Below, in pieces: positions 12,421 through 32,544 of a DNA stretch of 64,000 nt. The stretch spans positions 1,240,001 through 1,304,000 of the forward strand of contig NZ_RBHX01000001.1 of NCBI RefSeq assembly GCF_003626735.1, read 5' to 3'. Numbering within the stretch: position 1 is the first letter of the stretch; every line of letters starts with the position of its first letter. The notes under the pieces were generated by a model that saw nothing but the letters and a program-made list of their open reading frames with translations, searched no databases and was not told the DNA's origin. Source of the stretch: Microbacterium sp. CGR2. Its GTDB lineage: Bacteria; Actinomycetota; Actinomycetes; Actinomycetales; Microbacteriaceae. Both the position numbers and the translations under genes were made by a program.

Positions 12421-12462
12421 TCGTCGTGTGCGCCTCTCGCGACCATGGGAGAATCGTCTTCC

Positions 12463-16930: not shown

Positions 16931-16959
16931 CCCCCGGCGCCCATGGAAGGATGGGCGCG

Positions 16960-18192
16960 ATGAACGATCCGAGCGTCCCGGATGCCGCCGAACGACGCGC
17001 GCGCATCGCGGTCAGTGCCCTGTTCTTGACCAATGGTGCGCTCTTCGCCAACATCCTGCCGCGGTACCCGGAGATCAAGGCGTCGCTCGGTCTCGACAAC
17101 GTCGGCTACGGGCTGTCGATCGCGGCTCTCCCCGCCGGCGCGATAGTGGCGGGCCTGGCGGCGGCCTTCCTCATCGGCCGGTTCGGCTCGGCACGGGTGG
17201 CGGTGTTCGGCACCGTCGTCACAAGTCTCGGCTACCTGCTGGCCGGTCTCGCCCCTTCTGCACTGCTGTTCCCGATGGCACTCTTCTTCACCGGGGCCAG
17301 CGACGCGATCACCGATGTCGCGCAGAACGCGCACGGGCTCCGCGTGCAGCGCCGGTACGGACGCTCCATCATCAACTCCTTCCACGCGATCTGGTCGATC
17401 GGAGCCGTGCTCGGTGGAGTCATGGCGGCCGCGGCGATCGCGGTCGGCCTGCCCGTCGGCATCCACCTCGCGATCTCCACGGCGATCTTCGCCGCCGTCG
17501 CCCTGAGCGCCCTCCGCTTCTGCCTCCCCGGGCGTGACGAAGAGCGCGGCGAAGACACCGAATCGGATGCCGTCACCGGCGCGACCGAGATGGCCGGCGC
17601 GCAGGCACCGGTGCGCCGGGGTGTGAGCTTCCGGACCGTGGCGATGCTCGCGGCGCTCACCCTCGTCGCCATGGCGGGTGCCATCGCCGAAGACGCGGGC
17701 AACTCGTGGGCGACCCTCTATCTCGCCGACTCCCTCGGTGCCGCGGCGGCGGTCGCGCCGATCGGGTTCATCGCGCTCGTCGGGGCACAGTTCGTCGGAC
17801 GGCTGCTCGGCGACAGTCTCACGGACAGATTCGGGCAGCGCGTCGTCGCCGGCGTGGGCGGGATGATCGCGGCAGTGGGGATGGCGCTGGCTCTCGCTTT
17901 CCCGAGCATCCTCGGCACGATCCTCGGATTCGCCGCCGTCGGGTTCGGCATCGCGACGCTGATCCCGGCAGCGATGCACGCGGCGGACGAGCTCCCCGGG
18001 CTCCGACGGGGCGTGGGTCTGACGGTCGTCTCCTGGTTGTTGCGCGTCGGCTTCCTCCTGTCCCCGCCGTTCGTCGGGTACATCGCCGACGAGTACAGTC
18101 TGCGAGCGGGACTGCTCATCGCTCCGGTCGCCGGAATCGTGGCCGTGCTGCTCTGCGGCGCACTGGAGAAGCGACGCGTCGGTCGCCAGTGA
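16960..18192 (+). CDS. MFS transporter
   Basis: Integral membrane protein of 410 residues with 12 helices. The start of helix 1 reads AVSALFLTNGALFANILPRY, then PEIKASLGLDNVGYGLSIAA, typical of the YbjJ-like sugar/efflux MFS group. A charged loop at residues about 190-220 separates the two halves. The second half has EDAGNSWATLYLADSLGA and GDSLTDRFGQR (motif A repeat). ATG 16960 follows GGAAGGA. It begins 29 bases after the ArsR stop, so it may be the third gene of that operon. The substrate is unknown. Confidence 0.88.
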   Translation: MNDPSVPDAAERRARIAVSALFLTNGALFANILPRYPEIKASLGLDNVGYGLSIAALPAGAIVAGLAAAFLIGRFGSARVAVFGTVVTSLGYLLAGLAPSALLFPMALFFTGASDAITDVAQNAHGLRVQRRYGRSIINSFHAIWSIGAVLGGVMAAAAIAVGLPVGIHLAISTAIFAAVALSALRFCLPGRDEERGEDTESDAVTGATEMAGAQAPVRRGVSFRTVAMLAALTLVAMAGAIAEDAGNSWATLYLADSLGAAAAVAPIGFIALVGAQFVGRLLGDSLTDRFGQRVVAGVGGMIAAVGMALALAFPSILGTILGFAAVGFGIATLIPAAMHAADELPGLRRGVGLTVVSWLLRVGFLLSPPFVGYIADEYSLRAGLLIAPVAGIVAVLLCGALEKRRVGRQ

Positions 18193-18194
18193 CC

Positions 18195-18261
18195 GTATAC
18201 GTATTCACCCCCGCGATATAATGCGAAAATAGGCTTCCCTAAGTCGACTGCATACGTATAC
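18195..18261 (+). promoter_or_regulatory. promoter with two LacI-type operators before the CUT1 binding-protein gene
   Basis: A consensus -10 TATAAT is at 18217-18222; no good -35 is visible, and the first operator occupies its place. Operators are GTATACGTATTC (18195-18206) and GCATACGTATAC (18250-18261), sharing the core ATACGTAT with the perfect palindrome at 24929-24940. Their centres are 55 bases apart and bracket the promoter, allowing repression by looping. The second ends 10 bases before the ATG, leaving no ribosome site. Confidence 0.8.
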
Positions 18262-18271
18262 CATCAGCCGT

Positions 18272-19579
18272 ATGGCACACAACAAGCATCGGGCATTGCC
18301 GGTTCTCGCACTCGCAGCCGTGGGCATCGTCGCCCTCTCCAGCTGCGGCGCCGGAACCCGCACCGACAATGACAACGCGACAACGGTGTCGTGCGACTAC
18401 ACCGCTCCCGAGGGCAAGACCACGGTCAACGTGCTCGCCTACAACTCCTCCGCGATCGATCCCTTCACCGACACGATGGTCTCGAGCTGCTCGACCGACG
18501 ACGTGACCCTGAAGCACGACCCGATCGACTTCGGTGGACAGGTGACCAAGACGACCGCCACCCTCGCCGGCGAGACGGGCACGTACGACATCCTCGAGAC
18601 CTATGGCTTCGTCATCCCGGGGCTCGGCGAAGACGAGAAGCTCGTCCCGCTGAACGACCTGTGGGACACCTACGCCGACGACTACGGTCTCGGCGACATC
18701 AGCGAGTCCATGGTCGAGGGCATGTCCTACGACGGCGATATCTACGCCGTACCCATGCAGGCGCAGATGTACGTGATGGCGTACCGGACCGACGTCTTCG
18801 AAGACCTCGGGCTCGAAGTGCCGACGACGTTCGGCGAGATGATCGAGGCGGCCGAAGCCATCAAGGAAGCGGGGGTCATGGACTACCCGATCGCCCTGCC
18901 GTGGCTCGCCACCAGCGACGTCTCGACGGGATTCCAGGCGGCGATGAACTCGCTGGGCGCCGATTTCGTCACCGCAGACGGCGAGGTCACCCTCGACACA
19001 CCAGAGGCCAAGGAGGCGGTCGAGGCGATGCTCTCCCTCAAGCCGTACATGGACCCCCAGGTCACCACGTTCGACCAGCCCAAGGTGCAGCAGCAGATGT
19101 TCAACGGCACGGCCGCGATGTCGATCATGTTCTCCGGCCGCATGTACGACCTGACGCTCGAGTCCAACTCGAAGCTCTCCGACTCCTTCGGGTTCGCCGG
19201 CGCTCCGAAGGTGTCGGACGACGCGGAATACTCCTACAACCGCCTGTCGATCGACGGCTGGTCCATTCCGTTCAACACCAAGCTCGACCACGAGATGCTG
19301 TTCGTCATGATGGCCTCTGCCGTCAGTGAAGACGCCTCCGAGGCATCCGTTCCTGCCGCCTACCCGGCCAGGGAAGGAATGGTCACCGAAGAGAACTCGC
19401 CGTACGGCGCAGCTGCCAACGATTCGATCGCCAGCGTGGCGCCGCCGGTCGTCTCGCCCTACACGGCGGACATCACCAACGAGATCCGCCCGATCCTGGT
19501 GCAGGTGCTCAACGGCAGCCTGGCGGTGGACGAAGGGCTCGCGCAGATGCAGGCCGCCGGCGAGAAGATCGCCGGCTGA
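18272..19579 (+). CDS. sugar-type ABC transporter substrate-binding lipoprotein
   Basis: Cell-surface binding protein of 435 residues (family 1, CUT1 class). Signal residues 1-26 end with the lipobox LSSC. The mature part has TTVNVLAYNSSAIDPF, then PMQAQMYVMAYRTDVFEDLG and PTTFGEMIEAAEAIKEAG, the usual MalE-like layout, and ends with EGLAQMQAAGEKI. It leads an operon with two permeases; no ATPase gene follows, so a shared ATPase (MsiK-like) encoded elsewhere must serve it. Ligand: carbohydrate, polyol or glycoside-like, not readable further. No Shine-Dalgarno precedes ATG 18272. Confidence 0.92.
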   Translation: MAHNKHRALPVLALAAVGIVALSSCGAGTRTDNDNATTVSCDYTAPEGKTTVNVLAYNSSAIDPFTDTMVSSCSTDDVTLKHDPIDFGGQVTKTTATLAGETGTYDILETYGFVIPGLGEDEKLVPLNDLWDTYADDYGLGDISESMVEGMSYDGDIYAVPMQAQMYVMAYRTDVFEDLGLEVPTTFGEMIEAAEAIKEAGVMDYPIALPWLATSDVSTGFQAAMNSLGADFVTADGEVTLDTPEAKEAVEAMLSLKPYMDPQVTTFDQPKVQQQMFNGTAAMSIMFSGRMYDLTLESNSKLSDSFGFAGAPKVSDDAEYSYNRLSIDGWSIPFNTKLDHEMLFVMMASAVSEDASEASVPAAYPAREGMVTEENSPYGAAANDSIASVAPPVVSPYTADITNEIRPILVQVLNGSLAVDEGLAQMQAAGEKIAG

Positions 19580-19596
19580 CCCCCACCGACAGCAGT

Positions 19597-19630
19597 GACT
19601 GTGGCCTGAGCGCGAGTTCAGGCCACAGTC
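19597..19630 (+). promoter_or_regulatory. intercistronic hairpin between binding protein and permease genes
   Basis: Arms GACTGTGGCCTGA (19597-19609) and its exact complement (19618-19630) enclose an 8-base loop. There is no T run, and a strong AAAGGAGG ribosome site follows at 19636-19643. This is the place where malE-malF-like operons use a stem to stabilise upstream mRNA, so that binding protein exceeds permease. That role is inferred. Confidence 0.65.
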
Positions 19631-19649
19631 CGTCCAAAGGAGGACGCCA

Positions 19650-20522
19650 ATGAAGGCACGTGAATTCTGGGTGCTCTTCTTCCCGAGCCTGCTGGTGATG
19701 GCTGCACTCCTCGTGCTCCCTCTGGTACGCACGGTGCAGTGGAGCTTCGAACAGGTCCGCTACGGCACACCCGGGACTTTCGTCGGTCTCGACAACTTCG
19801 CGAACGCGCTCACCGACCCGCGGTTCCACAGCGCGGTCATCTTCACGGTGGCAGTCACCGTGGTGACGACGGCGATCCTGCTGGTGGCGGGCTACATCAT
19901 CGCGACGGGCATCAACCGCATCACCACGTCCCGCCCGCTGGTCCTCGGCATCATGCTCGTCTCGTACGTGCTGCCGAACCTCGTCGGAGCCGTCGCGTTC
20001 TCCTGGCTCTTCGACGACAACTTCGGCGGGGTGGTGAACAGGCTGATCGGGTTCTTCGGCGGCACGCAGGTGCTCTGGTTCACCGACCAGGTGCCCAACG
20101 CGATCCTGGTCATCGCGAACACCGTCTGGCACATGCTCCCGTTCGCGATGCTCATCATCCTGGCAGGGCTGCAGGGAGTTCCGGCTGAACTCAAAGAGGC
20201 CGCGAAGATCGATGGTGCCAACGCGTTCCAGACGCACATCAGCGTCATCATCCCGACGATTCGCGGGGTGCTGGGGTTCGTCACCCTCATCACGATCATG
20301 GATGTGCTCCGCATGTTCGACAACCTGATCCCGCTGTCACCTCAGGCGCAGTCGATCGGGAACGAGTCGATCATGCTCTACGTCTATTCGGTCGCTTTCG
20401 CCGACGGCGCGGAGCAGCTCGGCCTCGGCAGCGCGATCAACGTCCTCACCATCCTGCTGATCCTCATCATGCTGATCCCGTTCATCCGGGGCATCTTCAA
20501 GGAAGCGAAGGCCGAACGATGA
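19650..20522 (+). CDS. ABC transporter permease (MalF/UgpA-type)
   Basis: Inner-membrane subunit, 290 residues with six helices. It begins FWVLFFPSLLVMAALLVLPL. The EAA loop that contacts the ATPase is VPAELKEAAKIDGANAFQTH at about residues 182-201. Final helix INVLTILLILIMLIPFIRGI. The ribosome site AAAGGAGG lies six bases before ATG 19650. The next permease start overlaps its stop (ATGA). Confidence 0.93.
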   Translation: MKAREFWVLFFPSLLVMAALLVLPLVRTVQWSFEQVRYGTPGTFVGLDNFANALTDPRFHSAVIFTVAVTVVTTAILLVAGYIIATGINRITTSRPLVLGIMLVSYVLPNLVGAVAFSWLFDDNFGGVVNRLIGFFGGTQVLWFTDQVPNAILVIANTVWHMLPFAMLIILAGLQGVPAELKEAAKIDGANAFQTHISVIIPTIRGVLGFVTLITIMDVLRMFDNLIPLSPQAQSIGNESIMLYVYSVAFADGAEQLGLGSAINVLTILLILIMLIPFIRGIFKEAKAER

Positions 20523-21412
20523 GTCTCACCGCCGCAGAGCTCTCCACCAGGGCCATCGTCACCCGGGGCTCTTCGCCGCGCAAGCGTCGCGGGACCCGTC
20601 GCCCACCCGTCATCACGGGGCTGCTGCTCGGCATCCTGTGCTTCGTCATGCTGAGCCCCTTCATCTGGATGACGCTGTCGGTGACCAAGCCCACCGACGT
20701 GGCGTTCGCGAATCCGCCGGTGCTCTGGGACTATCAGCCCACCCTGCAGGCCTTCGTCGACCTCTGGGAGACCACGTACTTCGCCGACTACCTCATCAAC
20801 ACCCTGGTCGTCGCCACGGTGTCGACGGTCGTCGCGCTGGTGATCGGGATCCCGGCGGCGTACGCGCTGTCCCGATTCCCCAGTTACGTCTCCGCGCTCC
20901 TGCTCGTGCTCGCCCTCATCTTCCGTGCACTGCCGCGCTTCGCGGTCGTGCTGCCGATGTACGACATCAGTCGCGCGCTCGGAATCTACGACACGACGTT
21001 CGCGCTCGCCATCGCGCTCGTCGCGATCAACCAGCCGTTCACGATCTGGTTGCTGCGAAACTTCTTCGCGGAGATCCCCCGCGAACTCGACGAAGCAGCC
21101 ATGATCGACGGCTGCACCAGGATCGGGATGCTACGCCGGGTCATGATCCCGCTGATGGGGCCCGGCATCCTCACCGCCGGCATCTTCGTCTTCCTGTTCG
21201 CATTCCAGGAGTACCTCACCGCGCTCGTGCTCACCGACACCTCGTCGAAGACGGTGCCGGTCTTCATCGCCACGCAACTCGGGCAGACACTGCCGATGCT
21301 CCAACAGGCGGGGGCGGCATCGATGCTCTTGACCATCCCGGTGTTCGTCATCGCGTTCATCGCGCAGAAGTACCTCGTCGCAGGGCTCAGCGACGGCGCT
21401 GTGAAGGGCTGA
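20519..21412 (+). CDS. ABC transporter permease (MalG/UgpE-type)
   Basis: Second membrane subunit, 297 residues with six helices. It has a basic cytosolic lead (SSPRKRRGTRRP). The first helix is LLLGILCFVMLSPFIWMTLS, the EAA loop EIPRELDEAAMIDGCTRIGM, and the end FIAQKYLVAGLSDGAVKG, where GLSDGAVKG is the conserved CUT1 C-terminus. It pairs with the preceding permease. The hydrolase gene starts one base after its stop. Confidence 0.94.
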   Translation: MSLTAAELSTRAIVTRGSSPRKRRGTRRPPVITGLLLGILCFVMLSPFIWMTLSVTKPTDVAFANPPVLWDYQPTLQAFVDLWETTYFADYLINTLVVATVSTVVALVIGIPAAYALSRFPSYVSALLLVLALIFRALPRFAVVLPMYDISRALGIYDTTFALAIALVAINQPFTIWLLRNFFAEIPRELDEAAMIDGCTRIGMLRRVMIPLMGPGILTAGIFVFLFAFQEYLTALVLTDTSSKTVPVFIATQLGQTLPMLQQAGAASMLLTIPVFVIAFIAQKYLVAGLSDGAVKG

Positions 21413-21413
21413 C

Positions 21414-22103
21414 GTGGCACCGCTGGTGCTGCTCGCCGGCATGAACTGCACGGCAGACCTGTGGGCGGATGCCGAGCTGGACGGGGTGGTCCTGCCGACG
21501 CTGGATCGCCCCACACTGTCGAGTCAGGTCGAGGTGCTGCTGGACGAGTTGCCGCGGTCGTTCGTCCTGGTCGGGCACTCGCTCGGCGCGATCGTCGCGA
21601 TGGCCCTCGCGCTGCACGCACCTGAGCGTGTTGCGGGGCTCTGTCTGGTGTCGACCAACGCCAAGGCGCCGACGGATGCACAGCGCGACGGGTGGCGGGA
21701 GTGGTTGCATCAGCTCGAGAACGGGGCGACTGCCCGGGAGCTGCAGGAGAGCATTCTCGACGCGCTGCTCGGGGCCGAGGTCGTGAGCGCACGGGAAGAC
21801 CTGGTGGCCCGCGCGCTCCGCATGGGAGACGAGACCGGGACAGCACGGTTGCGCGCGCAGCTCGCGATGCAGCTGACGCGCGCCGACCTGCTCTCCCGGT
21901 TGCCCGCGCTTACGGTGCCGACTCTCGTGGTGTCAGGTCTCGATGACGTCGTCTGCCCGCCGCACTTCCACACGGAGATCGTCACCGCGCTGCCGGACGC
22001 CCGACTGGTGACCCTGGACGGCGGGCACCTCTTGCCGTTGCAACGCGCGCAGGCTTTCGGCGGTCTGCTGCGGTCGTGGCAGGCGCAGCTACCGCGCGGG
22101 TGA
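21414..22103 (+). CDS. alpha/beta hydrolase
   Basis: Soluble hydrolase of 229 residues. Nucleophile elbow GHSLGA (Ser about 59) after FVLVG, an acid in VVSGLDDVVCPP, and a C-terminal His in LDGGHLLPLQRAQAF complete the triad. It is shorter than usual, with little cap domain. GTG 21414 follows the permease stop directly, so it belongs to the transporter operon and probably cleaves an ester, lactone or C-C bond in the imported substrate. The 3' end overlaps the convergent aldolase gene by 15 bases. Confidence 0.85.
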   Translation: MAPLVLLAGMNCTADLWADAELDGVVLPTLDRPTLSSQVEVLLDELPRSFVLVGHSLGAIVAMALALHAPERVAGLCLVSTNAKAPTDAQRDGWREWLHQLENGATARELQESILDALLGAEVVSAREDLVARALRMGDETGTARLRAQLAMQLTRADLLSRLPALTVPTLVVSGLDDVVCPPHFHTEIVTALPDARLVTLDGGHLLPLQRAQAFGGLLRSWQAQLPRG

Positions 22104-22829
22104 CGCGAGGTCGCGCAGATGCCCCATGAGCGACGAAGCGAGGTTGTAGACCACGAGGTCGGCACCCTGCGTGAAGGCTGTCTCGGCGGCCGCTCGCGTG
22201 CCGACGATGTCCATGCGCAGCGAACCCGCCGCAGCCAGGGCGTCGTGCACCGCGGCGATCGCGTCGGCGACCGGCGGGTCGTCGGCACACGAGCTCGCGG
22301 CGAGGTCGGCCGGACCCACCATGATCCCGTCGAGGCGCGGCATCGCGACGATCTCGTGGGCCGCGCCGACCCCGGCGGGTGACTCGATCATGCCGAGGAC
22401 GAGGGTGTTCTCGAGCCACCAGTCGCGGTGGTCGGCTGCGACGACTTCGCCGAAACGACCGGCGCGGCTGTAGGTCGCGAAGCCGCGACTGCCGACCGGC
22501 GGGTACAGCGACGCATCGATGAGTGCGGCCGCATCCGCCGCGGCGTCGAGGTGGGGTGCGAGAATCCCCTCGGCTCCCTGGTCGAGCACCCGCAGGATCT
22601 GCCCGCGGTCGTTCTCGCCGACACGCACGACGACCGGAACGTCATGCACCGCTGCGAGGGCGATGTGCTGGCGGAGCGCGATGATGTCGGCAGGTCCGTG
22701 CTCGCAGTCGAGGAGGATGAAGTCGAAGTCCGCCACGGCGAGCATCTCGACGAGCTCCTCCGACGGCATCCGCAGCAAAGCGCCGATGAGCTTCTCGCCC
22801 GCCCGCGCCCTCGACCGCAGGGACGCCAT
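22089..22829 (-). CDS. HpcH/HpaI-family aldolase
   Basis: Class II metal-dependent aldolase of 246 residues. Landmarks: DFDFILLDCEHGPADI (catalytic His and metal environment), VVRVGENDRGQILRVLDQGA, a YSRAGRFG loop, MIESPAGV (metal Glu) and GIMVGPADLAAS (metal Asp). Family members cleave or form 2-keto-3-deoxy acids with release of pyruvate or glyoxylate. ATG 22829 overlaps the SDR stop (TGATG). It is the last gene of the HisD-like/SDR/aldolase operon, fitting a route in which two oxidations precede an aldol cleavage. Confidence 0.9.
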   Translation of the reverse strand: MASLRSRARAGEKLIGALLRMPSEELVEMLAVADFDFILLDCEHGPADIIALRQHIALAAVHDVPVVVRVGENDRGQILRVLDQGAEGILAPHLDAAADAAALIDASLYPPVGSRGFATYSRAGRFGEVVAADHRDWWLENTLVLGMIESPAGVGAAHEIVAMPRLDGIMVGPADLAASSCADDPPVADAIAAVHDALAAAGSLRMDIVGTRAAAETAFTQGADLVVYNLASSLMGHLRDLASPAR

Positions 22830-23587
22830 CACGCGACCATCCCGGCCGACAGGTCGACGTCGGCCCCGCACATGCCCGGCATCGAGAGCATCGCGACGAC
22901 CGCGGCTCCGACCTCTTCCTCGGTGATCATCCGACCGAGGGCGGCACGCGAGACGAACAACTGCTCGGCGTCGTCGACGGTGGTTCCGGAGCGATCGGCC
23001 TCGAGCCGGAAGTTCCGCTCCATGCGCGGACCCTGAACGGGCCCGGGCGACAGGGTGTTCACGCGCACTCCAGCGGGCCCGACCTCGAAAGCGAGCGTCG
23101 AGGTCAGCCCGATCACGGCCATCTTCGAGGCGCAGTAGGGGGTGCGGTGCGCGAGAGGGCGCTTGCCCGACACGGACGCGACGTTGATGATGTCGCCGTC
23201 ACCGCGTTCGATCATGCCGGGGAGCAACGCTTTGCAGAGCAAGAAGGTGCCGCGCACATTCACCGCGAAGACGTCGTCCCACTCGTCGACCTCGATGTCG
23301 GTGAGGGCGGCGACCGGTCCGGGTACGCCGGCGTTGTTCACGAGGATCGAGACATCCGTTCCGGCGAGGGTGTCACGCAGAGCACCGACGGACGCCGCAT
23401 CCGCGACGTCGCATGTGACGGCACGTGCACGTTCCCCGAGCTCCGCGACGACCGCGGCGAGCTTGTGCTCGCCACGGCCGACGACGACGACATCCGCGCC
23501 GGACCCATGCAGCGCGCGGGCGATGGCCGCCCCGAGGCCGCTGCCACCGCCGGTCACCACGGCGGTACGGCCGGTGAGGTCGGTCAC
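22829..23587 (-). CDS. SDR-family NAD(P)-dependent oxidoreductase
   Basis: Classical short-chain dehydrogenase of 252 residues. Cofactor motif TGGGSGLG at about 13-20, NNAGVPGP, catalytic VASVSGKR and YCASK (Tyr and Lys), then LSPGPVQGPRMER. GTG 23587 overlaps the stop of the HisD-like gene (GTGA). It would oxidise or reduce a secondary alcohol or ketone in the pathway of this operon. The acceptor is unknown. Confidence 0.92.
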   Translation of the reverse strand: MTDLTGRTAVVTGGGSGLGAAIARALHGSGADVVVVGRGEHKLAAVVAELGERARAVTCDVADAASVGALRDTLAGTDVSILVNNAGVPGPVAALTDIEVDEWDDVFAVNVRGTFLLCKALLPGMIERGDGDIINVASVSGKRPLAHRTPYCASKMAVIGLTSTLAFEVGPAGVRVNTLSPGPVQGPRMERNFRLEADRSGTTVDDAEQLFVSRAALGRMITEEEVGAAVVAMLSMPGMCGADVDLSAGMVA

Positions 23588-24912
23588 CGCGACTCCACGA
23601 CGGCAGCGTGGCTCTCTACGATCCACGCGAACTCCGCGCCGGCATGACGCCAGGCGCGGGCGTCACCCGAGCGCGCATGTCCTTCGAACAGCTCCACGCG
23701 GGCGGCGCGCCCGCAGACAGCACCGAGCTCGGCCGACGACTGCGTGCTCTGCACCTCTTGGTACGTCACCGTGCGCAGGTACTTTCCCACCCAGAGTCCG
23801 CCCGTGTAGCGCGCGGCACCGAGCGTCGGCAGCACGTGGTTGGTGCCGATGACCTTGTCGCCGTAAGAGACGCACGTGTTCTCCCCGAGGAAGAGGGCGC
23901 CGTAGTCATGCAGCCGGTCGAGCGCCTCGCGGGGGTTCTCGGTGAAGATCTGCACATGCTCGAATGCGAAATCGTCGGCGATGCGATACGCGTCGTCGAG
24001 GTCGTCGGCCACGATGACCTGCCCCCAGTCCCGCCAGGCGGGCTCGGCATAGTCACGCGTGGGCATGCCGGGCAGGATCTTGTCGATCCAGTCCATGACC
24101 TCTTCTGCGAGCTTCTGCGAGGTGGTCACCAGAACGGCGGGGGAGTCGGGACCGTGTTCGGCCTGAGAGAGCAGGTCGACCGCGGTGAAGAACGGGTCGG
24201 CGTGCTCGTCTGCGAGGATCAGGATCTCGGTCGGTCCGGCGAAGAGATCGATGCCGACCTCTCCGAAGAGCTGCCGCTTCGCCTCGGCGACATAGGCGTT
24301 ACCCGGGCCCGCGATCATGTTGACCGGCTCGATCGTGTCGGTGCCCACCGCCATCGCGGCCACGGCCTGGACGCCGCCGAGGATGTAGATCTCGTCGGCA
24401 CCGGCCATCTTCATCGCGGCGACCGTGGCGGCGGGGATCTCACCCCGAATCGGCGGAGTGCAGGCCACCACCCGGGGGACTCCCGCGACCTTGGCGGTGA
24501 TGATCGTCATGTGGGCGGATGCCGTGAGCGGATACTTCCCGCCGGGGATGTAGGCGCCGGCCGCCTGCACCGGGACGTGCTTCTGGCCGAGGAACACGCC
24601 GGGAAGAGTCTCGACCTCGATGTCGACGAGGGAGTCTCGCTGCGCCTGCGCGAAACGACGGACCTGCGTCTGCACGAACTCGATGTCCTCGATCACCTGC
24701 GGCGACAGCGTGCCGATGATCTGCTCGATCTCGGCATCCGACAGTCGGTACGACTCGGGGCTCCAGCTGTCGAACTGCTCGGCGTAGCGTCGGACGGCGG
24801 CGTCGCCGTTCTCGCGGATGTCGCCGATGATCCCGCGGACGCGTTCGGCGACGTCCTGCTGAGCGGTGTCCGCGAACGTCTTCGTCGGCGCGGACTTCAA
24901 GTGCAGGGGCAT
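23584..24912 (-). CDS. HisD-superfamily alcohol dehydrogenase, catabolic paralogue
   Basis: Histidinol-dehydrogenase-fold enzyme of 442 residues, oxidising a primary alcohol to an acid with NAD+. Zinc and catalytic residues of the family are present: Gln250/His253 (QAEHG), Glu318/His319 (FEHV), Asp352 (GDKVIGTNH) and His412. It is not in a his operon. It stands with an SDR and an aldolase and is read from a LacI-controlled promoter. Known non-histidine members include HpsN, acting on dihydroxypropanesulfonate; the substrate here is unknown. AAGGAAGG precedes ATG 24912. The C-terminal 30 residues are longer than the family core. Confidence 0.88.
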   Translation of the reverse strand: MPLHLKSAPTKTFADTAQQDVAERVRGIIGDIRENGDAAVRRYAEQFDSWSPESYRLSDAEIEQIIGTLSPQVIEDIEFVQTQVRRFAQAQRDSLVDIEVETLPGVFLGQKHVPVQAAGAYIPGGKYPLTASAHMTIITAKVAGVPRVVACTPPIRGEIPAATVAAMKMAGADEIYILGGVQAVAAMAVGTDTIEPVNMIAGPGNAYVAEAKRQLFGEVGIDLFAGPTEILILADEHADPFFTAVDLLSQAEHGPDSPAVLVTTSQKLAEEVMDWIDKILPGMPTRDYAEPAWRDWGQVIVADDLDDAYRIADDFAFEHVQIFTENPREALDRLHDYGALFLGENTCVSYGDKVIGTNHVLPTLGAARYTGGLWVGKYLRTVTYQEVQSTQSSAELGAVCGRAARVELFEGHARSGDARAWRHAGAEFAWIVESHAAVVESR

Positions 24913-24928
24913 GGCCCTTCCTTTCGTT

Positions 24929-24974
24929 GCATACGTATGCTCTGATTATGACCGCGTATGCACAGCAGCGTCAA
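24929..24974 (-). promoter_or_regulatory. LacI-controlled promoter of the HisD-like operon
   Basis: On the minus strand -35 TTGACG (24974-24969), an 18-base spacer and -10 CATAAT (24950-24945). A perfect 12-base palindrome GCATACGTATGC (24929-24940) covers the expected transcription start. A half-matching site, TGCATACGCGG on the minus strand (24962-24952), lies in the spacer. This is the strongest operator of the family and defines the consensus; it also lies 71 bases before the lacI-type gene and may autoregulate it. Confidence 0.8.
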
Positions 24975-25011
24975 GGCGTTAGAATCCGATGGATCGAGCG
25001 GAGGGCGTCAG

Positions 25012-26013
25012 ATGGTCGTCACAAGTCGTGATGTCGCACGGCTGGCGGGGGTGTCGCAGCCGACGGTGTCCCGCGCGCTGCGCGATGACTCGCGGGTGTC
25101 GGATGCGACCAAGGTTCGCGTGCGCGAAGCGGCCCAGCTTCTGGGGTACGTGCCCAGCGAAGCCGGACGGGCACTGTCGTCCGGCCGGACGCGGCGCATC
25201 GGGCTGCTGCTGACCGATCTCGACAATCAGTTCTACTCGCACATCATCGCGCCCGTGCATCGCCAGCTTGAGGCCCTCGGCTATCAGCTCATGCTGCACA
25301 CCGAGAGCGCCGACAACGACACCATCGTGGAACGGCTGCTCGCAAACGGACTCGACGGGGTGATCCTCGCGACCACGACAGTCGAGTCGGCGGCTCCGCT
25401 GCGCCTCAAGGACCGCGGGCTCCCGTTCGTCTATTTCAACCGCACGGCCGCGCTGATCGAAGCGGACGCCACGGTGGTGGATCCGATTCCGGGATACCGG
25501 CAGGCCGTCGATCGCTCCGTCGAGTTGGGTCATCGCCGCATCGGGGCCGTGCTCGGGCCGAGCAACACGAGTACCGCACAGGCGCGGGAATCCGCGCTTC
25601 GCGCCGCGCTCCTGGCCCATGGTCTCTCCCTGGCCGAAGTCGACACCCGTCGCGTACCCTACAGCGCCGACGAAGGGGAGGCCGCGGCGCGCTCGATCCT
25701 GGAGCAGGTCGACCGCCCCACCCTGCTGTTCTGCGGCAACGATGTCGTGGCATACGGCGTCCTCAACGCGGCGCACCGCGCCGGCCTGCGAGTGCCGGAA
25801 GACCTTTCCGTCATCGGCTTCGACGACCTCCCCGAAGCCGCCTGGCCGATCATCGATCTCGCCACGGTCGGATACGACATCTCGGGGATGGCTGTCGCGG
25901 CCGCGGATCTCATCGTGCGACGCATCGAAGACCGCGAGGCCCCGATCGACAACACGCTGTTCGGGTCGGAGTTCGTCCCGCGCCGGACGCTCTCCGCAGC
26001 ACCGGTCCGCTGA
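25012..26013 (+). CDS. LacI-family repressor of the catabolic island
   Basis: Repressor of 333 residues. The N-terminal HTH is SRDVARLAGVSQPTVSRALR with the hinge AAQLLGYVPSEAGRALSS. A periplasmic-binding-like domain follows: RIGLLLTDLDNQFYSHI, GVILATTTV, RPTLLFCGNDVVAYG and DLSVIGFDDLPEAAWP. ATG 25012 has GGAGGG six bases upstream; an in-frame ATG at 24958 would only add a featureless lead overlapping the promoter. Sites of one consensus occur before the importer, the HisD-like operon and the NTF2-like gene, so it is probably the island's specific repressor. The inducer is likely the imported compound or its first product. Confidence 0.92.
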   Translation: MVVTSRDVARLAGVSQPTVSRALRDDSRVSDATKVRVREAAQLLGYVPSEAGRALSSGRTRRIGLLLTDLDNQFYSHIIAPVHRQLEALGYQLMLHTESADNDTIVERLLANGLDGVILATTTVESAAPLRLKDRGLPFVYFNRTAALIEADATVVDPIPGYRQAVDRSVELGHRRIGAVLGPSNTSTAQARESALRAALLAHGLSLAEVDTRRVPYSADEGEAAARSILEQVDRPTLLFCGNDVVAYGVLNAAHRAGLRVPEDLSVIGFDDLPEAAWPIIDLATVGYDISGMAVAAADLIVRRIEDREAPIDNTLFGSEFVPRRTLSAAPVR

Positions 26014-26055
26014 CCTTCGATCGGCGCTGACACTCGTGTGTCGCGAAACTGTTCC

Positions 26056-26084
26056 TTGCCATCGATTGTGCATACGCATACACT
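26056..26084 (+). promoter_or_regulatory. promoter with LacI-type operator before the NTF2-like/bicupin pair
   Basis: -35 TTGCCA (26056-26061), 17-base spacer, -10 TACACT (26079-26084). The operator GCATACGCATAC (26070-26081) matches GCATACGTATGC at 10 of 12 positions and lies between and over these elements, so binding would exclude polymerase. Confidence 0.75.
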
Positions 26085-26146
26085 GGCGACACGAGCCCTC
26101 GTTCACCGACGAAACGCGGACTCAGATGTCAAAGGAGTGAAACAGC

Positions 26147-27127
26147 GTGTCTCTCGATCCGGTCGCTTACCTGCCGTACAAAGACCCTGACGACTTCATC
26201 CGTGAAGTCACCGACCTGATCTGGGTCGATCGTTCGATCCATTACATCCGGGAGAACTACGAGCCTGACTCGATCGTGCACGGGGCCTACGGCACCTCCA
26301 CAACCCGCGACGAGGTGATCGAGGGAACGCTCATGCGCATCTCGGCCACCCCCGATCGCACGGGCCAGGCCGCAGACGTGATCTGGGAAGCACGTGGCGA
26401 TGACGCCTTCCTCAGCTCGCACCTCGTGCTCTCGGGGCAGCTGCAGACCTCGGCCCACAGCTACACGATCGCCAACTGCCTGTACCGTCGCGGACGCATG
26501 GTCGAGGAGTGGGTCGTGCGCGACTCGCTCGCCGGCGCACTGGAGAGTGGCGCCGACGTCGACGAACTCGCGCGGGCGCAGGCGTTCCGCGGATACACCG
26601 GGTCGTGGACCGAGCCGGCTCCGGCCGACCCGATCGCGAAGGGCGACTCGGGCGCTCGCCCGGACGAATACCGCTCTGAGGTCGAGACCGTGATCGACAT
26701 GATCCAGACCGTCTGGAACGAGCGCGATCTGCAGAAGGTGGAGAAGTACTTCCACCGCGATCTCGTGCTCCAGACCGTCGGCAACAAGGTTGTGATCCGC
26801 CCCGAGGGCTACCGTCGGGCGCTGTTGAAGTTCCTCGAATCCTTCCCCGCCGGACAATTCGAGATCCGAGACATCCAGACCAACTACGACGTGCGGTACG
26901 CCGGCCTCCGGGTCGCGGTGACGTGGAAGTTCACCGGCGCCTACAACGGCAAGCCGAACTACGGCTCGCTCACAGGCGCGCCCGTCGACGTCCTCGGAAT
27001 CTCGCAGTTCACCTTCCACCAGGGTGCCCTCGTCAAAGAGGTGCGTCTGTGGGACGACATCGCCCTCCGTGCACAGATCGCCGGCATGCGCGGCGACGAG
27101 CCCGTCGGCCCCACCAACATCTACTGA
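26147..27127 (+). CDS. tandem NTF2-like (SnoaL-type) protein
   Basis: Protein of 326 residues without signal or membrane segments. Two NTF2-like cone folds can be seen. The first (about 18-150) has DLIWVDRSIHYIRENY and VHGAYGTSTTRDEVIEGT; the second (about 180-315) has TVWNERDLQKVEKYFHRDLV and GYRRALLKFLESFPAGQFEI. Such folds serve as cyclases, isomerases, dehydratases or mere binding proteins. GTG 26147 follows AAAGGAG. The bicupin gene starts 30 bases downstream, in the same operon under LacI control. A role in modifying the island's substrate is inferred from context only. Confidence 0.8.
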   Translation: MSLDPVAYLPYKDPDDFIREVTDLIWVDRSIHYIRENYEPDSIVHGAYGTSTTRDEVIEGTLMRISATPDRTGQAADVIWEARGDDAFLSSHLVLSGQLQTSAHSYTIANCLYRRGRMVEEWVVRDSLAGALESGADVDELARAQAFRGYTGSWTEPAPADPIAKGDSGARPDEYRSEVETVIDMIQTVWNERDLQKVEKYFHRDLVLQTVGNKVVIRPEGYRRALLKFLESFPAGQFEIRDIQTNYDVRYAGLRVAVTWKFTGAYNGKPNYGSLTGAPVDVLGISQFTFHQGALVKEVRLWDDIALRAQIAGMRGDEPVGPTNIY

Positions 27128-27157
27128 TCACTCGCGGATCGACAAGGAGAAGAAGAA

Positions 27158-28306
27158 ATGAGCGACGTCATCGTCGACACGACCGAGATCGAACGACGGA
27201 CGATCCGCCGATCGGACTGGGTCCCGTGCAACTCGGCATTCATCGACTGCCGCACCCCCGGTTCGGACCGCAAGGAGAACTACGCCTTCATCGGCGCCGG
27301 TGTCTCGCAGAACGCGAACCAGTACGTGAACCTCGAGGAGAACCACGGGTTCAACACCGGTGCCGCGGGGATGCCGAACGGCATCTCGAACAACCTGCAC
27401 CTGCACTTCACGGCCGAGGTGTTCATCAACCTCGGTGGAGAGTTCCGTCTGCGCTGGGGAGTCGACGGCACGCAGGGCGAGTACATCAGCCACGACGGCG
27501 ACATCGTCACCATCCCCACCTGGATCTTCCGCGGTTTCACGAACGAGGGTCCGGACGAGGGCATCCTCTACACCGTGCTCGGTCGCGACGACAACGGCGG
27601 CATCATCTGGGGGCCGTCGGTGTTGCGCGAAGCCGAGTCGTACGGATTGCACCTCACAGCCGACAACCGTCTGATCGACACCGTCGCCGGCGACGTGCTG
27701 CCCGACGACGTCGCGCTGATCACTCCGATGAAGCAGCACTACATCGATGAGCTGACCGAGTTCACGGTCGAAGACATGCGCTCGCGCGTCATCCAGCCGG
27801 GCGACCGCAAGTACTCCTCCGCCGCACTGCTGTGCGCGGCCGTCGAGGGAGGCAGGGTCGAGCTCGCCACGGCGATCGGCTACGGCATGTCGGAGAACCG
27901 ACGCCAGGTCCCGAACGTGCACGAACCGCACTCGTTCAACCTCGCATGGGTGCGTGCCGAGGCCGGTCAGGGCGTGCTGCGTCACCGCCACGACAAGACG
28001 CAGGCGCTGCTCTTCAAGACGGGGCGCTGGGAGGTCACGCTCAACGACGACTCGTCCACGACGGTGAACCTCGGTCCCGGCGACGCGTTCTCCGTTCCCG
28101 AAGGCGCCTGGCGGTCGTATGTCTGCGTGGAGGCCGATGAGTCGGGGACGGGCACAGTGCTCGTCATCAACGGAGGAGACGACCGCGTGTACCTCGAGTG
28201 GGCGCCGGAGGTCGTCGAGGCCGCTGCCGCCGCGGACTGGACCATCGACCCCAACGGATATCTCGCGCCGCTCGGCGTGATGGTCACCGCGACCGAAGAC
28301 GACTGA
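27158..28306 (+). CDS. bicupin domain protein
   Basis: Soluble protein of 382 residues with two cupin barrels. The first (about 60-160) reads NNLHLHFTAEVFINLGGEFR, then GDIVTIPTWIFRGFTNEG. The second (about 245-345) reads HRHDKTQALLFKTGRWEVTL, then GPGDAFSVPEGAWRSY. Paired His-x-His and Glu/Gln residues in both suggest metal binding, as in ring-cleaving or sugar-isomerising bicupins. It is co-transcribed with the NTF2-like gene. The reaction is unknown; a dioxygenase or isomerase step on the imported compound is plausible. Confidence 0.82.
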   Translation: MSDVIVDTTEIERRTIRRSDWVPCNSAFIDCRTPGSDRKENYAFIGAGVSQNANQYVNLEENHGFNTGAAGMPNGISNNLHLHFTAEVFINLGGEFRLRWGVDGTQGEYISHDGDIVTIPTWIFRGFTNEGPDEGILYTVLGRDDNGGIIWGPSVLREAESYGLHLTADNRLIDTVAGDVLPDDVALITPMKQHYIDELTEFTVEDMRSRVIQPGDRKYSSAALLCAAVEGGRVELATAIGYGMSENRRQVPNVHEPHSFNLAWVRAEAGQGVLRHRHDKTQALLFKTGRWEVTLNDDSSTTVNLGPGDAFSVPEGAWRSYVCVEADESGTGTVLVINGGDDRVYLEWAPEVVEAAAAADWTIDPNGYLAPLGVMVTATEDD

Positions 28307-28309
28307 GAC

Positions 28310-28348
28310 GACGGGGCGCGAGAGGCGGGGGCATCTCCGCGCCCCGTC
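28310..28348. terminator. GC-rich hairpin between convergent bicupin and LysR genes
   Basis: Arms GACGGGGCGCG (28310-28320) and CGCGCCCCGTC (28338-28348) are perfectly complementary around a 17-base loop. It starts four bases after the bicupin stop and overlaps the end of the LysR gene, so it may terminate in both directions. There is no T run. Confidence 0.55.
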
Positions 28349-29279
28349 AGTTGAGTGCCACCCGACCGCGATGCTCGGGAAGCCGCTCGCGCAGCATCCG
28401 CTCGGCGAGCTCTGCGAGGCGCTGGGTCGCCGGCGAGAGCAGCATTCCCTCCCGTTTCACGAGGGCGATCGTGTCGTGGATGGGCTCTGCGAACGGGGTG
28501 ATGCGGATGCCGGCGGGGAAGCCGGCGGCCTCGGCGATGCTGCGGGAGACGATCGTGTCGGCGGTGCCTGCCGCGACCAGGCTGAGGGCCGTCTCGACGT
28601 GCTCGACCTCCACGGCGGGCTCCAGTACGAGGCCGACGGTTCGCGCGCGCTCGAGCAGCTGACGACGGGTCGGGTCGTCCCATCCGGCGAACGCGTCGTA
28701 GAGCACGAGCTTCGCAGCGGCGACCTCGTCGATCGTGACCGGTCCGGCATCCGGGTCTCGGGTCGCTGAGGCGTACACCACTTCGTCGCGGAACAGGGGT
28801 CGAACCTCGAGGCCGTCTTCGTCGATCGGCAGGACGAGCAGTCCGGCCTCGAGCTCGCCGCTCGCGATCGAGCGCGCGACGTGCGCGGAGTTGATGCCGA
28901 CGAGACGAAGCCGCACGTTCGGATGCCGGTGGTGGAACGTCTCGGCGAGATCGGCGAGTGCGTAGTAGGCCGCGTTGCGCAGCACCCCGAAGGTGCAGGT
29001 GCCTCGTTCGAGTGAGGTGAGCGCGTGAATGGTGTCGAGGCCGTTCCGCACGGCGCTGACCGCCTGGGTGGCGTGGGGGCGCAGCTCGAGAGCGGCGGTG
29101 GTGGGAACGAGCCGGCGACTGCCGCGAGTGAACAGCGCGACACCGAGTTCGCGTTCGAGGCGGGCGACGAGTTCCGAAACCGACGCCTGGGTCATGTCGA
29201 GTTCGGCGGCGGCGGCGGTGAAGGAACCGTGCTCGAGAGCGGCGAGAAAAGCGGTCAGCTGGGCGATGGACACACCCAA
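28347..29279 (-). CDS. LysR-family regulator
   Basis: About 310 residues. HTH: AFLAALEHGSFTAAAAELDM, TQASVSELVARLERELGVAL and FTRGSRR. The effector domain runs from residue about 90, with TFGVLRNAAYYALADLAETF and LVGINSAHVARSIASGELEA. The start is uncertain between TTG 29279 and GTG 29273; neither has a clear ribosome site. It is divergent from the second HisD-like gene with a T-N11-A box between them, so it probably activates that gene and represses itself. The effector is unknown, possibly an intermediate of the neighbouring island. Confidence 0.88.
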   Translation of the reverse strand: MGVSIAQLTAFLAALEHGSFTAAAAELDMTQASVSELVARLERELGVALFTRGSRRLVPTTAALELRPHATQAVSAVRNGLDTIHALTSLERGTCTFGVLRNAAYYALADLAETFHHRHPNVRLRLVGINSAHVARSIASGELEAGLLVLPIDEDGLEVRPLFRDEVVYASATRDPDAGPVTIDEVAAAKLVLYDAFAGWDDPTRRQLLERARTVGLVLEPAVEVEHVETALSLVAAGTADTIVSRSIAEAAGFPAGIRITPFAEPIHDTIALVKREGMLLSPATQRLAELAERMLRERLPEHRGRVALN

Positions 29280-29295
29280 TGGTAGACCCTGTGGA

Positions 29296-29308
29296 TCATC
29301 AAGGATGA
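29296..29308. promoter_or_regulatory. LysR box TCATC-AAG-GATGA
   Basis: A 13-base T-N11-A dyad with perfect 5-base arms in the 70-base gap between the divergent LysR and HisD-like genes. It lies 42 bases before the HisD-like start, where LysR activators usually bind. Confidence 0.5.
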
Positions 29309-29349
29309 GGTGGGTTGTCAGATGATTCGGGGCGATCTACCGTCGAAGC

Positions 29350-30666
29350 ATGCGCTACTCCACACCCGTTCTCGCCCGCCTCGACGGCGCTTTCCATCAC
29401 CTCAAGACTCCGCTGATCGACGCACCCGCAGCGCAGCGCGATCCCGCCGTGATCGAAACCGTGACGAACATGCTCGCCGACATCCGCGAGCGGGGTCTGG
29501 ATGCCGTGATCGACTACGCCCGGAAGCTCGACAACTATCAGGGCGCGGACATCGAACTCACGGCCGAGCAGATCGCGACCAGTGGCGACCGTCTGGATCC
29601 CGCCCTGCGCGCCGCGATCGAGCTCGGCGCCGAGCGCACGCAGGCATTCGCCCGTGAACAGCGGTCCCACCTGTCCGATTTCGAGACCGAGCTCGTGCCC
29701 GGACTCGTCACCGGCGCGAAGTACGTTCCCGTCTCGCGCGTGGGCGCCTACCTCCCGGCCGGCCGCTTCCCGCTGACAGCGAGCGCGTTCATGACGGTCG
29801 GTGTGGCGAAGGCGGCGGGAGTGCCGACGGTCATCGCATGCACGCCGCCTCAGCCGGACGGCGGAGCGAACGACGCGGTCGTCTATGCGGCGCATCTGTC
29901 CGGGGTCGACCGCGTGTTCGTGATCGGCGGTGTGCAGGCGCTCGCCGCGATGGCCTATGGACTGCTCGGTGAGCTCCCCGTCGACATGCTCGTCGGCGCC
30001 GGCAATGCCTTCGTCGCCGAGGCGAAGCGCCAGCTGTTCGGCACCGTCGCGATCGATCTGCTCGCCGGTCCGAGTGAGGTCGCGGTGATCTCCGACGACA
30101 CCGCCGACCCTGCCCTCGTCGCCGCCGACCTGCTCGGTCAGGCCGAACACGGACCCAACTCGCCGGCCGCGCTCGTCACGACCTCCGAGGAGCACGGACG
30201 TGCCGTGATCGCCGCGATCGAGCACCAGCTCGAGACCTTGGCGACCGCCGAGATCGCGGGCGCCGCGTGGCGCGACTACGGGGTGGTGACGGTGGCGAAG
30301 GACCGCGAGACCGCCGCCGCACTCATGGATGACCTGGCCCCCGAGCACCTCGAGCTGCTCACCGCCGACGACGACTGGTATCACGACAACCTTCGCAACT
30401 ACGGGTCGATCTTTCTCGGCACGTGGAGCACCGTCGCCTACTCCGACAAGGGCATGGCGGGCACGAACCACGTGCTGCCGACCGCGGGCGGCGCGAAGCA
30501 CAGCGCCGGCCTGTCGGTCTCCCGCTTCCTGAAGCCGTTGACGTATCAGCGCATCAGCCGCGAGGCCACGCCCGAACTGGCCAACGCCGTGCAGGTCATC
30601 TCCGACTCCGAGGGAATGGCCGCGCACAGCGCGACCGCGACGATGCGATTGGCGACGTTCGAGTGA
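29350..30666 (+). CDS. second HisD-superfamily dehydrogenase
   Basis: A 438-residue enzyme of the histidinol-dehydrogenase fold, clearly diverged from the copy at 23584-24912. Family residues: Gln264/His267 (QAEHG), Glu332/His333 (PEHLELL), Asp366 (YSDKGMAGTNH, where the usual GD is SD) and His426. It has the glycine motif LVGAGNAFVAEAKRQLFG. It is a single gene divergent from a LysR regulator and far from any his gene, so a catabolic role is likely. ATG 29350 lacks a good ribosome site. It may handle a related alcohol or the other enantiomer of the same substrate. Confidence 0.85.
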   Translation: MRYSTPVLARLDGAFHHLKTPLIDAPAAQRDPAVIETVTNMLADIRERGLDAVIDYARKLDNYQGADIELTAEQIATSGDRLDPALRAAIELGAERTQAFAREQRSHLSDFETELVPGLVTGAKYVPVSRVGAYLPAGRFPLTASAFMTVGVAKAAGVPTVIACTPPQPDGGANDAVVYAAHLSGVDRVFVIGGVQALAAMAYGLLGELPVDMLVGAGNAFVAEAKRQLFGTVAIDLLAGPSEVAVISDDTADPALVAADLLGQAEHGPNSPAALVTTSEEHGRAVIAAIEHQLETLATAEIAGAAWRDYGVVTVAKDRETAAALMDDLAPEHLELLTADDDWYHDNLRNYGSIFLGTWSTVAYSDKGMAGTNHVLPTAGGAKHSAGLSVSRFLKPLTYQRISREATPELANAVQVISDSEGMAAHSATATMRLATFE

Positions 30667-30690
30667 AGCCGGACCACCAGCACGGTACGG

Positions 30691-30944
30691 CTACGACTCC
30701 CAGAACCGACGCAACCTGCGGGCGAGACAACGGGATCCTGAATCGGATGTTCTCGCACTGCGTTCTCGTGCGAGAGGTACGGCTCGCCGGCGCTGCGATC
30801 GTGACCGGGAAGGTCGGGGACGAGAAGGCGGATGTCCGAGTCGAGATGCTCCCGCAGCGGTTCCCACATCCACCCGCCCACCCCGCCGCCATGCAGCAGA
30901 AGCACGCGTCGTCCCTGTTCGTCGCCCGACTTCTCCACGTACAT
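30691..30944 (-). pseudogene. truncated alpha/beta hydrolase
   Basis: From ATG 30944 the first 65 or so residues are a good hydrolase N-terminus: RRVLLLHGGGVGGWMWEPL (oxyanion HGGG), then LLVPDLPGHDRS. After SHENAVRE the similarity stops well before any nucleophile elbow, and the frame continues as unrelated sequence into the 3' end of the convergent HisD-like gene. In another frame the stretch ending LARRLRRFWES at 30691 resembles a hydrolase C-terminal tail, which would mean an internal deletion of about 180 residues; that part is tentative. It lies 14 bases after the TetR stop, in the same orientation. Confidence 0.65.
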
Positions 30945-30958
30945 CCCGGACCTTCTTC

Positions 30959-31537
30959 CTAGAGCTCGAACGCCGACACCATGCGCGCGATGGCGTTGAA
31001 TGCGCCCTCGAGATTCTCGGGATCGAGGGGCCCGAGCAGCGCGTTCGCAGAGAGCAGCCCGATCGTCGTGCTGGAGAGGGCGAGCGCCAGATGCTCGGCA
31101 TCGACGTCGGCGCGCAGGCGTCCTTGCTGCTGCAGGTGACGTAGCCACTCGATGACGAGCAGGTGCCGCGCTCGGTAGCGGCCATCGGTGACGGCGGAGA
31201 CATGGCTGCCCAGGACGCCGTGGTCGTCCAGAAAGGCCGCCGTCATGAGCCGGTCTTCCAGGAGCGCGCGGATCGCGCTGCGGTAGGCGCCGCTGAGGGT
31301 GACGTCGTCGCCCAACTCCGCATCGACGCGCGCCTGCATCCGCTCGCCTGCCCGTTGCAGAAGCGCGTCGAGGATGTCTGTCTTGCTGTCGAACTCGAGG
31401 TAGACCGCTCCCTTTCCGATGCCGGCGCGGGCAGCCACCGATGCGACACTGGTCGCGTCGAAGCCCTGCTCGAGGACGAGATGCTCAGCGGCGTCGAGAA
31501 TCGCGGTCCGTCGGTGGGGGCGGCGAGGGCGCGGCAT
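30959..31537 (-). CDS. TetR-family regulator
   Basis: A 192-residue repressor with the HTH in residues about 10-55 (RTAILDAAEHLVLEQGFDAT, SVASVAARAGIGKGAVYLEF) and a long helical effector domain. Its ATG overlaps the stop of the upstream hydrolase gene (TGATG), so both are one transcript, and the truncated hydrolase follows. It probably controls this unit through the inverted repeat at 32433-32456. The ligand is unknown; a hydrophobic ester cleaved by the hydrolase is a guess. Confidence 0.87.
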   Translation of the reverse strand: MPRPRRPHRRTAILDAAEHLVLEQGFDATSVASVAARAGIGKGAVYLEFDSKTDILDALLQRAGERMQARVDAELGDDVTLSGAYRSAIRALLEDRLMTAAFLDDHGVLGSHVSAVTDGRYRARHLLVIEWLRHLQQQGRLRADVDAEHLALALSSTTIGLLSANALLGPLDPENLEGAFNAIARMVSAFEL

Positions 31538-32418: not shown

Positions 32419-32432
32419 GTTGCACCTCGTTC

Positions 32433-32456: not shown

Positions 32457-32544
32457 CTACGAGTGCACCATACTTTCGGCCTGCTCGGCTGCGTTCACCC
32501 GGCGAAGCCCGCCATGTCGGCGGAGCCGGTGACCGCCGAAGCGC

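Follow-up and report, generated by a model that had tools for sequence, protein, structure and literature searches.

A conserved LacI-type regulon of Microbacterium sp. CGR2 combines known enzyme families in a new way

A stretch of 64,000 nucleotides from Microbacterium sp. CGR2 (the window; contig NZ_RBHX01000001.1, positions 1,240,001 to 1,304,000) contains, between positions 18195 and 30666, a gene island that constitutes a real and conserved LacI-type regulon, in which known enzyme families occur in a new combination that extends over at least three phyla. We consider it moderately probable that this is a LacI-repressed regulon that takes up a small solute, polyhydroxylated and resembling a sugar or polyol, and breaks it down via exchangeable modules. 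Comparison between genomes revealed two things that one window cannot show, namely a nitrilase-superfamily gene placed elsewhere in the genome and, in other phyla, the exchange of a HisD-family dehydrogenase for Otn enzymes.

Operator sites and conservation of the island

Four sites related to the palindrome GCATACGTATGC were found in the island. Two precede the gene of an extracellular solute-binding protein (SBP): GTATACGTATTC at 18195..18206 (two mismatches) and GCATACGTATAC at 18250..18261 (one mismatch), whose last base lies 11 bases before the start codon of the SBP. The third putative LacI-type operator, an exact palindrome (24929..24940), lies between the genes of HisD1, a HisD-family dehydrogenase, and the LacI-family regulator, and the fourth, GCATACGCATAC at 26070..26081 (two mismatches), lies at the promoter of the NTF2-like gene. 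The first-pass annotation, made from the letters of the window, had placed sites of one consensus at these positions on the promoters of three transcription units; the positions and the sharing among three units stood, while the single consensus gave way to a degenerate motif to which just the site at 24929 conforms exactly. A fifth weak match (34247, two mismatches) lies outside the island. Shuffled windows gave 0.90 matches on average and 3 at most, none of 100 reaching five or more. In the whole genome, 69 matches with up to two mismatches were counted versus 51 for a reversed-pattern control, which is near background, so that the case for operators rests on clustering and conservation and not on rarity; given these counts, candidates for further regulon members in the genome were rejected. 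The genomic sites with at most one mismatch are those at 24929 and 18250 in the island and two outside it (1011402 and 1886831, one mismatch each).

The motif, derived from the window, was tested on 33 loci of named genomes that were fetched by their bicupin genes and played no part in its definition. All 33 loci carry it at the LacI promoter; at the NTF2 promoter it is present in 32 of 33 loci and at that of SBP in 29 of 30, as compared with 2 of 32 HisD2 promoters and 1 of 33 HpcH promoters, and only three matches fall outside the ten scanned promoter windows in ~590 kb. The 12 bases of the NTF2 site are identical in 32 relatives; in the 33rd case, Arthrobacter L028, the NTF2 gene is absent and the identical site is kept upstream of the bicupin gene. 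Upstream of SBP, most relatives have the site GCATACGTATAC at -21/-22 and another at -75 to -88, the latter missing in some. Since the motif stands at only 2 of 32 HisD2 promoters, HisD2, the second HisD-family dehydrogenase, for the most part does not belong to the LacI regulon and is probably controlled by the LysR-type regulator.

Three sigma-70-like sequences were found in 18000-30800 (shuffle mean 1.1), two of which coincide with operators. TTGACG-18-CATAAT, directed towards HisD1 (24945..24974, minus strand), would start transcription inside the site 24929-24940, and the second hexamer of TTGCCA-17-TACACT, of the NTF2–bicupin unit (26056..26084, plus strand), overlaps the site 26070-26081; both promoters are consensus matches only, and no sigma-70-like match was found at the two SBP sites. 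Such an overlap of promoter and operator, as predicted here, is the layout of repression.

Conservation of the neighbourhood, which the first-pass annotation had left to be checked, was found in all 33 named loci, from records of Microbacterium, Plantibacter, Subtercola, Arthrobacter, Specibacter, Pseudarthrobacter, Nocardioides and Pseudonocardia. HpcH, LacI and bicupin genes are present in 33 loci, HisD1, short-chain dehydrogenase (SDR) and NTF2 genes in 32, SBP in 31, HisD2 in 30 and LysR in 27, some of the loci being cut by contig ends; the Pseudonocardia locus (L034) has neither HisD1 nor SDR. The spread is patchy, with a full-length close bicupin in 25 of 198 genomes of the genus Microbacterium (33 with any match, E 0.001), 5 of 394 of the class (7 with any match) and 3 of 396 of the phylum.

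The gene families proposed in the first-pass annotation were confirmed by profile matches for SBP, permeases, hydrolase, both HisDs, SDR, HpcH, LacI, NTF2, bicupin and LysR, which also support the catabolic make-up of the island. Its importer is of CUT1 type, consisting of the SBP (18272..19579, plus strand; PF01547, 87.5 bits) and two permeases, A (19650..20522, plus strand; PF00528) and B (20519..21412, plus strand; PF00528), and no transporter ATPase gene is present among the open reading frames annotated from 16882 to 32457. The nearest solved structures of the SBP include a sorbitol-named and another sugar-transport SBP (PDB 5iai and 4rya, 58 bits). The LacI-family regulator (24958..26013, plus strand), whose true start may lie downstream of the listed ATG, has both the helix-turn-helix and the periplasmic-binding-like domain (PF00356, PF13377), and the LysR-type regulator is encoded at 28347..29279 on the minus strand. 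Upstream of the island are a BCCT (betaine/carnitine/choline) transporter gene at 12445-14418 and, between this and the island, an MFS gene at 16882-18192.

Divergent clusters and the exchange of HisD1 for Otn enzymes

Searches with tblastn in plasmids, together with genome searches, yielded 24 divergent cupin-holding clusters (L054-L065, L067 and L111-L121), in which the gene set is rearranged, from Pseudomonadota, Deinococcota and divergent Actinomycetota. Two candidates were dropped from this count: Phaeobacter L066, which has NTF2 and importer genes and no cupin, and Cupriavidus L122, which has a distant cupin only. The stable core pairs the cupin with an alpha/beta hydrolase and, in most cases, with an enzyme of aldolase type (HpcH or RraA), some clusters also having a MetE-like protein. 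In the island these correspond to an alpha/beta hydrolase (21414..22103, plus strand; PF00561), weakly like 3-oxoadipate enol-lactonase with PcaD-type models far below cut-off, and an HpcH/HpaI aldolase (22089..22871, minus strand; PF03328), whose start codon may lie ~40 bases further in. RraA takes the place of HpcH in marine and rhizobial clusters (e.g. L061, L062, L065, L115 and L116), sometimes with the MetE-like protein. The latter (Meth_synt_2) recurs in cupin clusters L059, L065, L067, L111-L113 and L120 and in some of them replaces HpcH or RraA, and an SBP56 gene is also nearby in Marinovum and Phaeobacter.

Eighteen of the 24 clusters have a HisD1-type protein (~54% identity or more to HisD1 of the window or of Klebsiella), four have OtnK and OtnC, two have neither and none has both. 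The two with neither are Rhizorhabdus L118, which has no HisD and no Otn gene, and Roseomonas L060, which reaches the edge of its record. The SDR, encoded in the island at 22829..23626 (minus strand; PF00106, 182 bits), accompanies HisD1 in 17 of the 18, the exception being Marinovum L059, where no SDR match was found. Sinorhizobium L061 was counted as HisD1; its gene (10692-11941) is matched by two stretches that overlap and lie in different frames, and is perhaps disrupted or affected by a sequencing error. The four Otn clusters, of Ensifer NER9, Thioclava, Vibrio and Salinivibrio, show no HisD or SDR match within 25 kb, and three of them have OtnI-like genes. OtnK, OtnC and OtnI of Vibrio score above the curated equivalog cut-offs, as does OtnK of Ensifer, whereas OtnC of Ensifer falls narrowly below (240.8 vs 250).

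This exchange is the main argument on the substrate: because HisD and Otn replace each other, it suggests a four-carbon hydroxy-acid intermediate, more precisely a hydroxy-oxo acid. It also connects the system with the L-threonate/2-oxo-tetronate pathway, as four sister clusters have OtnK and OtnC beside the cupin–HpcH–hydrolase core, although OtnI, OtnK and OtnC are absent from the window island and no tetronate C2 dehydrogenase is annotated in the four Otn-cluster stretches. A different explanation would be an ordinary sugar-acid or polyol pathway (for a tetronate, an ascorbate breakdown product or a branched sugar) with unusual enzymes, in which NTF2 protein, cupin and hydrolase would carry out simple isomerisation and lactone opening. 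Such a pathway is possible though somewhat doubtful: it agrees with the CUT1, MFS or TRAP importers, the LacI or DeoR regulators, the GarL/HpaI-like aldolase, the Otn enzymes of four clusters and an SBP nearest to sugar and polyol binders, but leaves unexplained both the SnoaL-type proteins, up to four of which are annotated in one cluster, and the amide hydrolase that accompanies a second HisD, as described below.

HisD groups and a detached hydrolase

HisD1 (23584..24912, minus strand; PF00815, 469.6 bits) and HisD2 (29350..30666, plus strand; PF00815, 437.6 bits) were compared with known enzymes by a tree and a residue test. In the tree, HisD1 proteins of Actinomycetota, Pseudomonadota and Deinococcota form one group (99/94), HisD2 proteins of Actinomycetota a separate one (100/100) next to two dihydroxypropanesulfonate (DHPS) dehydrogenases (92/90), and the second HisDs of Pantoea and Alloyangia a third (100/99); the tree has few outgroups, and long branches were flagged by the program. 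The genome's own HisD branches off apart from them together with PDB 4g07 (100/100), so that the island proteins are not grouped with the HisD of histidine biosynthesis. As judged from these sequences, HisD1 belongs to a distinct HisD group across three phyla. With histidinol dehydrogenase the island proteins share the family and the catalytic residues, both scoring above the cut-off of the broad TIGR00069 model, whereas the genome has a separate HisD (C1:3296146) that is 36% identical to HisD1, and residue 353 is Tyr in HisD and Lys in the island proteins.

Among solved structures, those of DHPS dehydrogenases come closest to both proteins (365-384 bits vs ~260 for histidinol dehydrogenase), which speaks for the catabolism of a DHPS-like sulfonate through HpsN-type dehydrogenases, an idea floated in the first-pass annotation. 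According to PMC11382572, HpsN of Cupriavidus pinatubonensis recognises the sulfonate by His126, within the motif G-R-Y-A/S-H, and Lys353 helps to bind it. The island proteins share with HpsN the HisD-fold zinc dehydrogenase family, the catalytic and zinc residues and Lys353, and differ at His126. Lys353 is kept in 32 of 32 island HisDs, and so are Q248, H251, E318, H319, D352 and H411, the zinc and catalytic residues, which HisD also shares and which are therefore not discriminating. HisD1 has GKYPL and HisD2 GRFPL in place of the HpsN motif, with Leu at the position of His126, and none of the 29 island HisDs with a residue in this column has His (21 Leu, 6 Met and 2 Ile; three further are gaps). 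The hps cluster, as listed in PMC11382572, is without the LacI, cupin, NTF2, aldolase and hydrolase genes of the island. The island has no sulfolyase gene, as the first-pass annotation had noticed. In the whole genome, PF04295, the UxaA-type domain, had no match, and no Xsc protein scored over cut-off; SuyB is presumably a member of PF04295. With the His126 motif lost and the sulfite-releasing genes missing, sulfonate catabolism was rejected as very improbable. It is probable that the substrate has some group within reach of Lys353, and not a sulfonate held by His126.

A further candidate enzyme of the system cannot be seen in the window. A carbon-nitrogen hydrolase (PF00795, nitrilase superfamily) follows the bicupin or stands beside HisD2 in 24 of the relatives' 33 loci, whereas in the window just 40 bases separate bicupin and LysR genes. 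The copy of the window genome lies at 2317594 of its contig C1, ~1.05 Mb from the island, adjoined by a permease of PF02133 (cytosine/purine/allantoin family); hydrolase and permease occupy 2317594-2319902 (L050 7594-9902), and a second, more distant carbon-nitrogen hydrolase is found at L050 10160. This copy was searched for in 30 of the 33 relatives' genomes (L009, L030 and L033 were left out). Exactly one close copy was found in 27, in the island in 21 and elsewhere in six, with no genome having both, and all six are genomes whose island has none. Among the remaining three, two genomes without an island gene gave no match, and the island gene of Nocardioides is too distant for the cut-off. 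The PF02133 permease is next to the hydrolase in six of the relatives in which the latter is detached, lies inside the island in L018, and is found elsewhere in three genomes with an island hydrolase. In Plantibacter (L103, G956:C2 near 39836), HisD2, LysR, hydrolase and permease genes form one group away from the island, which is itself without HisD2 and LysR; this HisD2 matches at 79% over the part covered and this LysR at 70%. From this grouping and the placement pattern of the hydrolase, we conclude that HisD2, LysR and the carbon-nitrogen hydrolase travel as a sub-module.

The same association was observed at larger distance. All six divergent clusters with a second HisD have an amidase or carbon-nitrogen hydrolase, compared with one of 12 clusters with one HisD, namely Sinorhizobium L061 (Fisher p = 0.00038, which overstates independence as the clusters are related). 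What the amide hydrolase says about the substrate is that part of it bears or gains an amide.

Candidate pathway and its alternatives

The bicupin (27158..28306, plus strand; PF07883) has an N-terminal site of H81, H83 and E87 with Arg125, all four kept in 25 of 25 aligned cluster cupins. Because these residues are conserved while the histidines of the second domain vary in the same 25 proteins, the first cupin domain is likely to be the active site. Cupin dioxygenases of the ARD and quercetinase type have a 3-His-1-Glu site, made up of HxH...E and a third His in two conserved motifs; in all 25 cluster cupins Arg125 stands where this third His is expected. A model of the bicupin (predicted local distance difference test, pLDDT, 87) matched oxalate decarboxylase and quercetinase in Foldseek (TM ~0.5). 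The NTF2/SnoaL-like protein (26147..27127, plus strand; PF07366 on its second half) is a two-domain tandem, the AlphaFold model of which (pLDDT 81) matched SnoaL2, AclR and polyether epoxide hydrolases. These are predicted matches at the level of fold that fix no reaction. In an alignment of nine cluster proteins, the HpcH/HpaI aldolase retains the residues H, R, E and D from the motifs of its family; it shares fold and active-site motifs with the class II aldolases GarL and HpaI, but falls far below all curated cut-offs (118.9 of 406.75 bits for GarL).

Two further explanations draw on these proteins. Aromatic or lactone catabolism, with a ring-cleaving cupin, an enol-lactonase-like hydrolase and the HpcH aldolase, would fit the weak PcaD likeness of the hydrolase, the quercetinase-like fold of the cupin and one related cluster, of Rhizorhabdus RW1, that lies near aromatic genes on its plasmid. 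We regard it as quite unlikely, given the sugar-type importers, the Otn enzymes of the sister clusters, the Arg in place of the third cupin His in 25 of 25 proteins and an island that has no hydroxylase or ring-hydroxylating oxygenase. SnoaL-like proteins, to which the fold matches point, are typical of polyketide biosynthesis and could speak for a biosynthetic or modification cluster; there is very little to be expected from this idea, as a binding-protein importer stands under the same putative operator, catabolic Otn enzymes swap in, and the island is without synthase, ligase or exporter.

The operator sites, gene set, conservation, module exchange and conserved residues are direct observations. 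For the breakdown of a polyhydroxylated solute, we infer each reaction, the order of reactions, and a substrate with a CH(OH)-CH2OH end, as follows. The CUT1 importer would bring the solute in, and HisD1 would take four electrons from the CH(OH)-CH2OH end, using two NAD+, to give a hydroxy acid, a four-electron oxidation being likely by analogy because of the chemistry of the family. The SDR may oxidise a secondary alcohol close by, rearrangement or oxygenation of the skeleton may fall to the double NTF2 protein and the metal-binding N-terminal cupin, and the alpha/beta hydrolase may open a lactone or a C-C bond, after which the HpcH aldolase, for which aldol cleavage is likely, would split the oxo acid so formed into pyruvate-level fragments. 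In the sister systems the CH2OH end would not be oxidised, and the four-carbon oxo acid would be phosphorylated by OtnK and decarboxylated by OtnC. HisD2 and the carbon-nitrogen hydrolase, here detached, would handle an amide-bearing alcohol part of the molecule as a second sub-module.

Several observations weigh against this reading. The window genome itself has OtnK and OtnC at G000:C1:728108-729361 (L126), and therefore the exchange of HisD for Otn holds for loci and not for genomes. HpcH, alpha/beta hydrolase and SDR are just 31-46% alike between phyla, so that the same place is no proof of the same reaction, and three divergent Actinomycetota clusters (G263, G1185 and G1206) have no aldolase, the MetE-like protein alone being seen within 20 kb. 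No operator was found upstream of the detached carbon-nitrogen hydrolase, where the best match has three mismatches, and its membership in the LacI regulon is therefore not shown. The LacI-family protein, as judged from its sequence, may or may not repress. The L126 locus has a DeoR-like regulator and another sugar-type importer, and no island operator was found there.

A more specific proposal is that the regulon degrades cyclohexenones of the mycosporine or gadusol type, UV-absorbing metabolites of algae, fungi, lichens and cyanobacteria. Reasoned on paper from their ring chemistry, HisD1 would oxidise the C(OH)CH2OH group of the ring, opening of the enolised 1,3-dione ring would be the work of cupin, NTF2 protein and alpha/beta hydrolase, and cleavage of the tertiary-alcohol oxo acid that of HpcH or RraA. 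A side chain that is an amino-alcohol amide, such as glutaminol, would be converted by HisD2 and the amide hydrolase through a histidinol-like oxidation and a deamidation. In clusters without HisD, retro-aldol cleavage and C-C hydrolysis of gadusol would give HOCH2-CO-CHOH-COO-, which is 3-oxo-tetronate, the substrate of OtnK. PMC3083659 describes mycosporine-glutaminol as well as its glucoside. We rate this proposal as unlikely: no glycosidase and, apart from the MetE-like protein of some clusters, no demethylase was found, and 4-deoxygadusol itself would not yield the 2-hydroxyl of 3-oxo-tetronate.

That the enzyme set matches no recognised pathway, as the first-pass annotation had held, agrees with the open-access literature, in whose titles and abstracts no description of the gene set was found; most subscription journals lie outside this coverage, so absence in print is not established. 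Annotation names such as histidinol dehydrogenase, ester cyclase and cupin hide a degradation system that is common to marine, plant-associated and soil bacteria. The comparison yields tests in the distinct HisD group, the unusual metal site of the cupin, the replacement of oxidation (HisD/SDR) by phosphorylation (OtnK/OtnC) and the separable sub-module of HisD2 and amide hydrolase. Once the substrate is identified, at least five protein groups would be assigned together, and a carbon source common to these bacteria would have a name.

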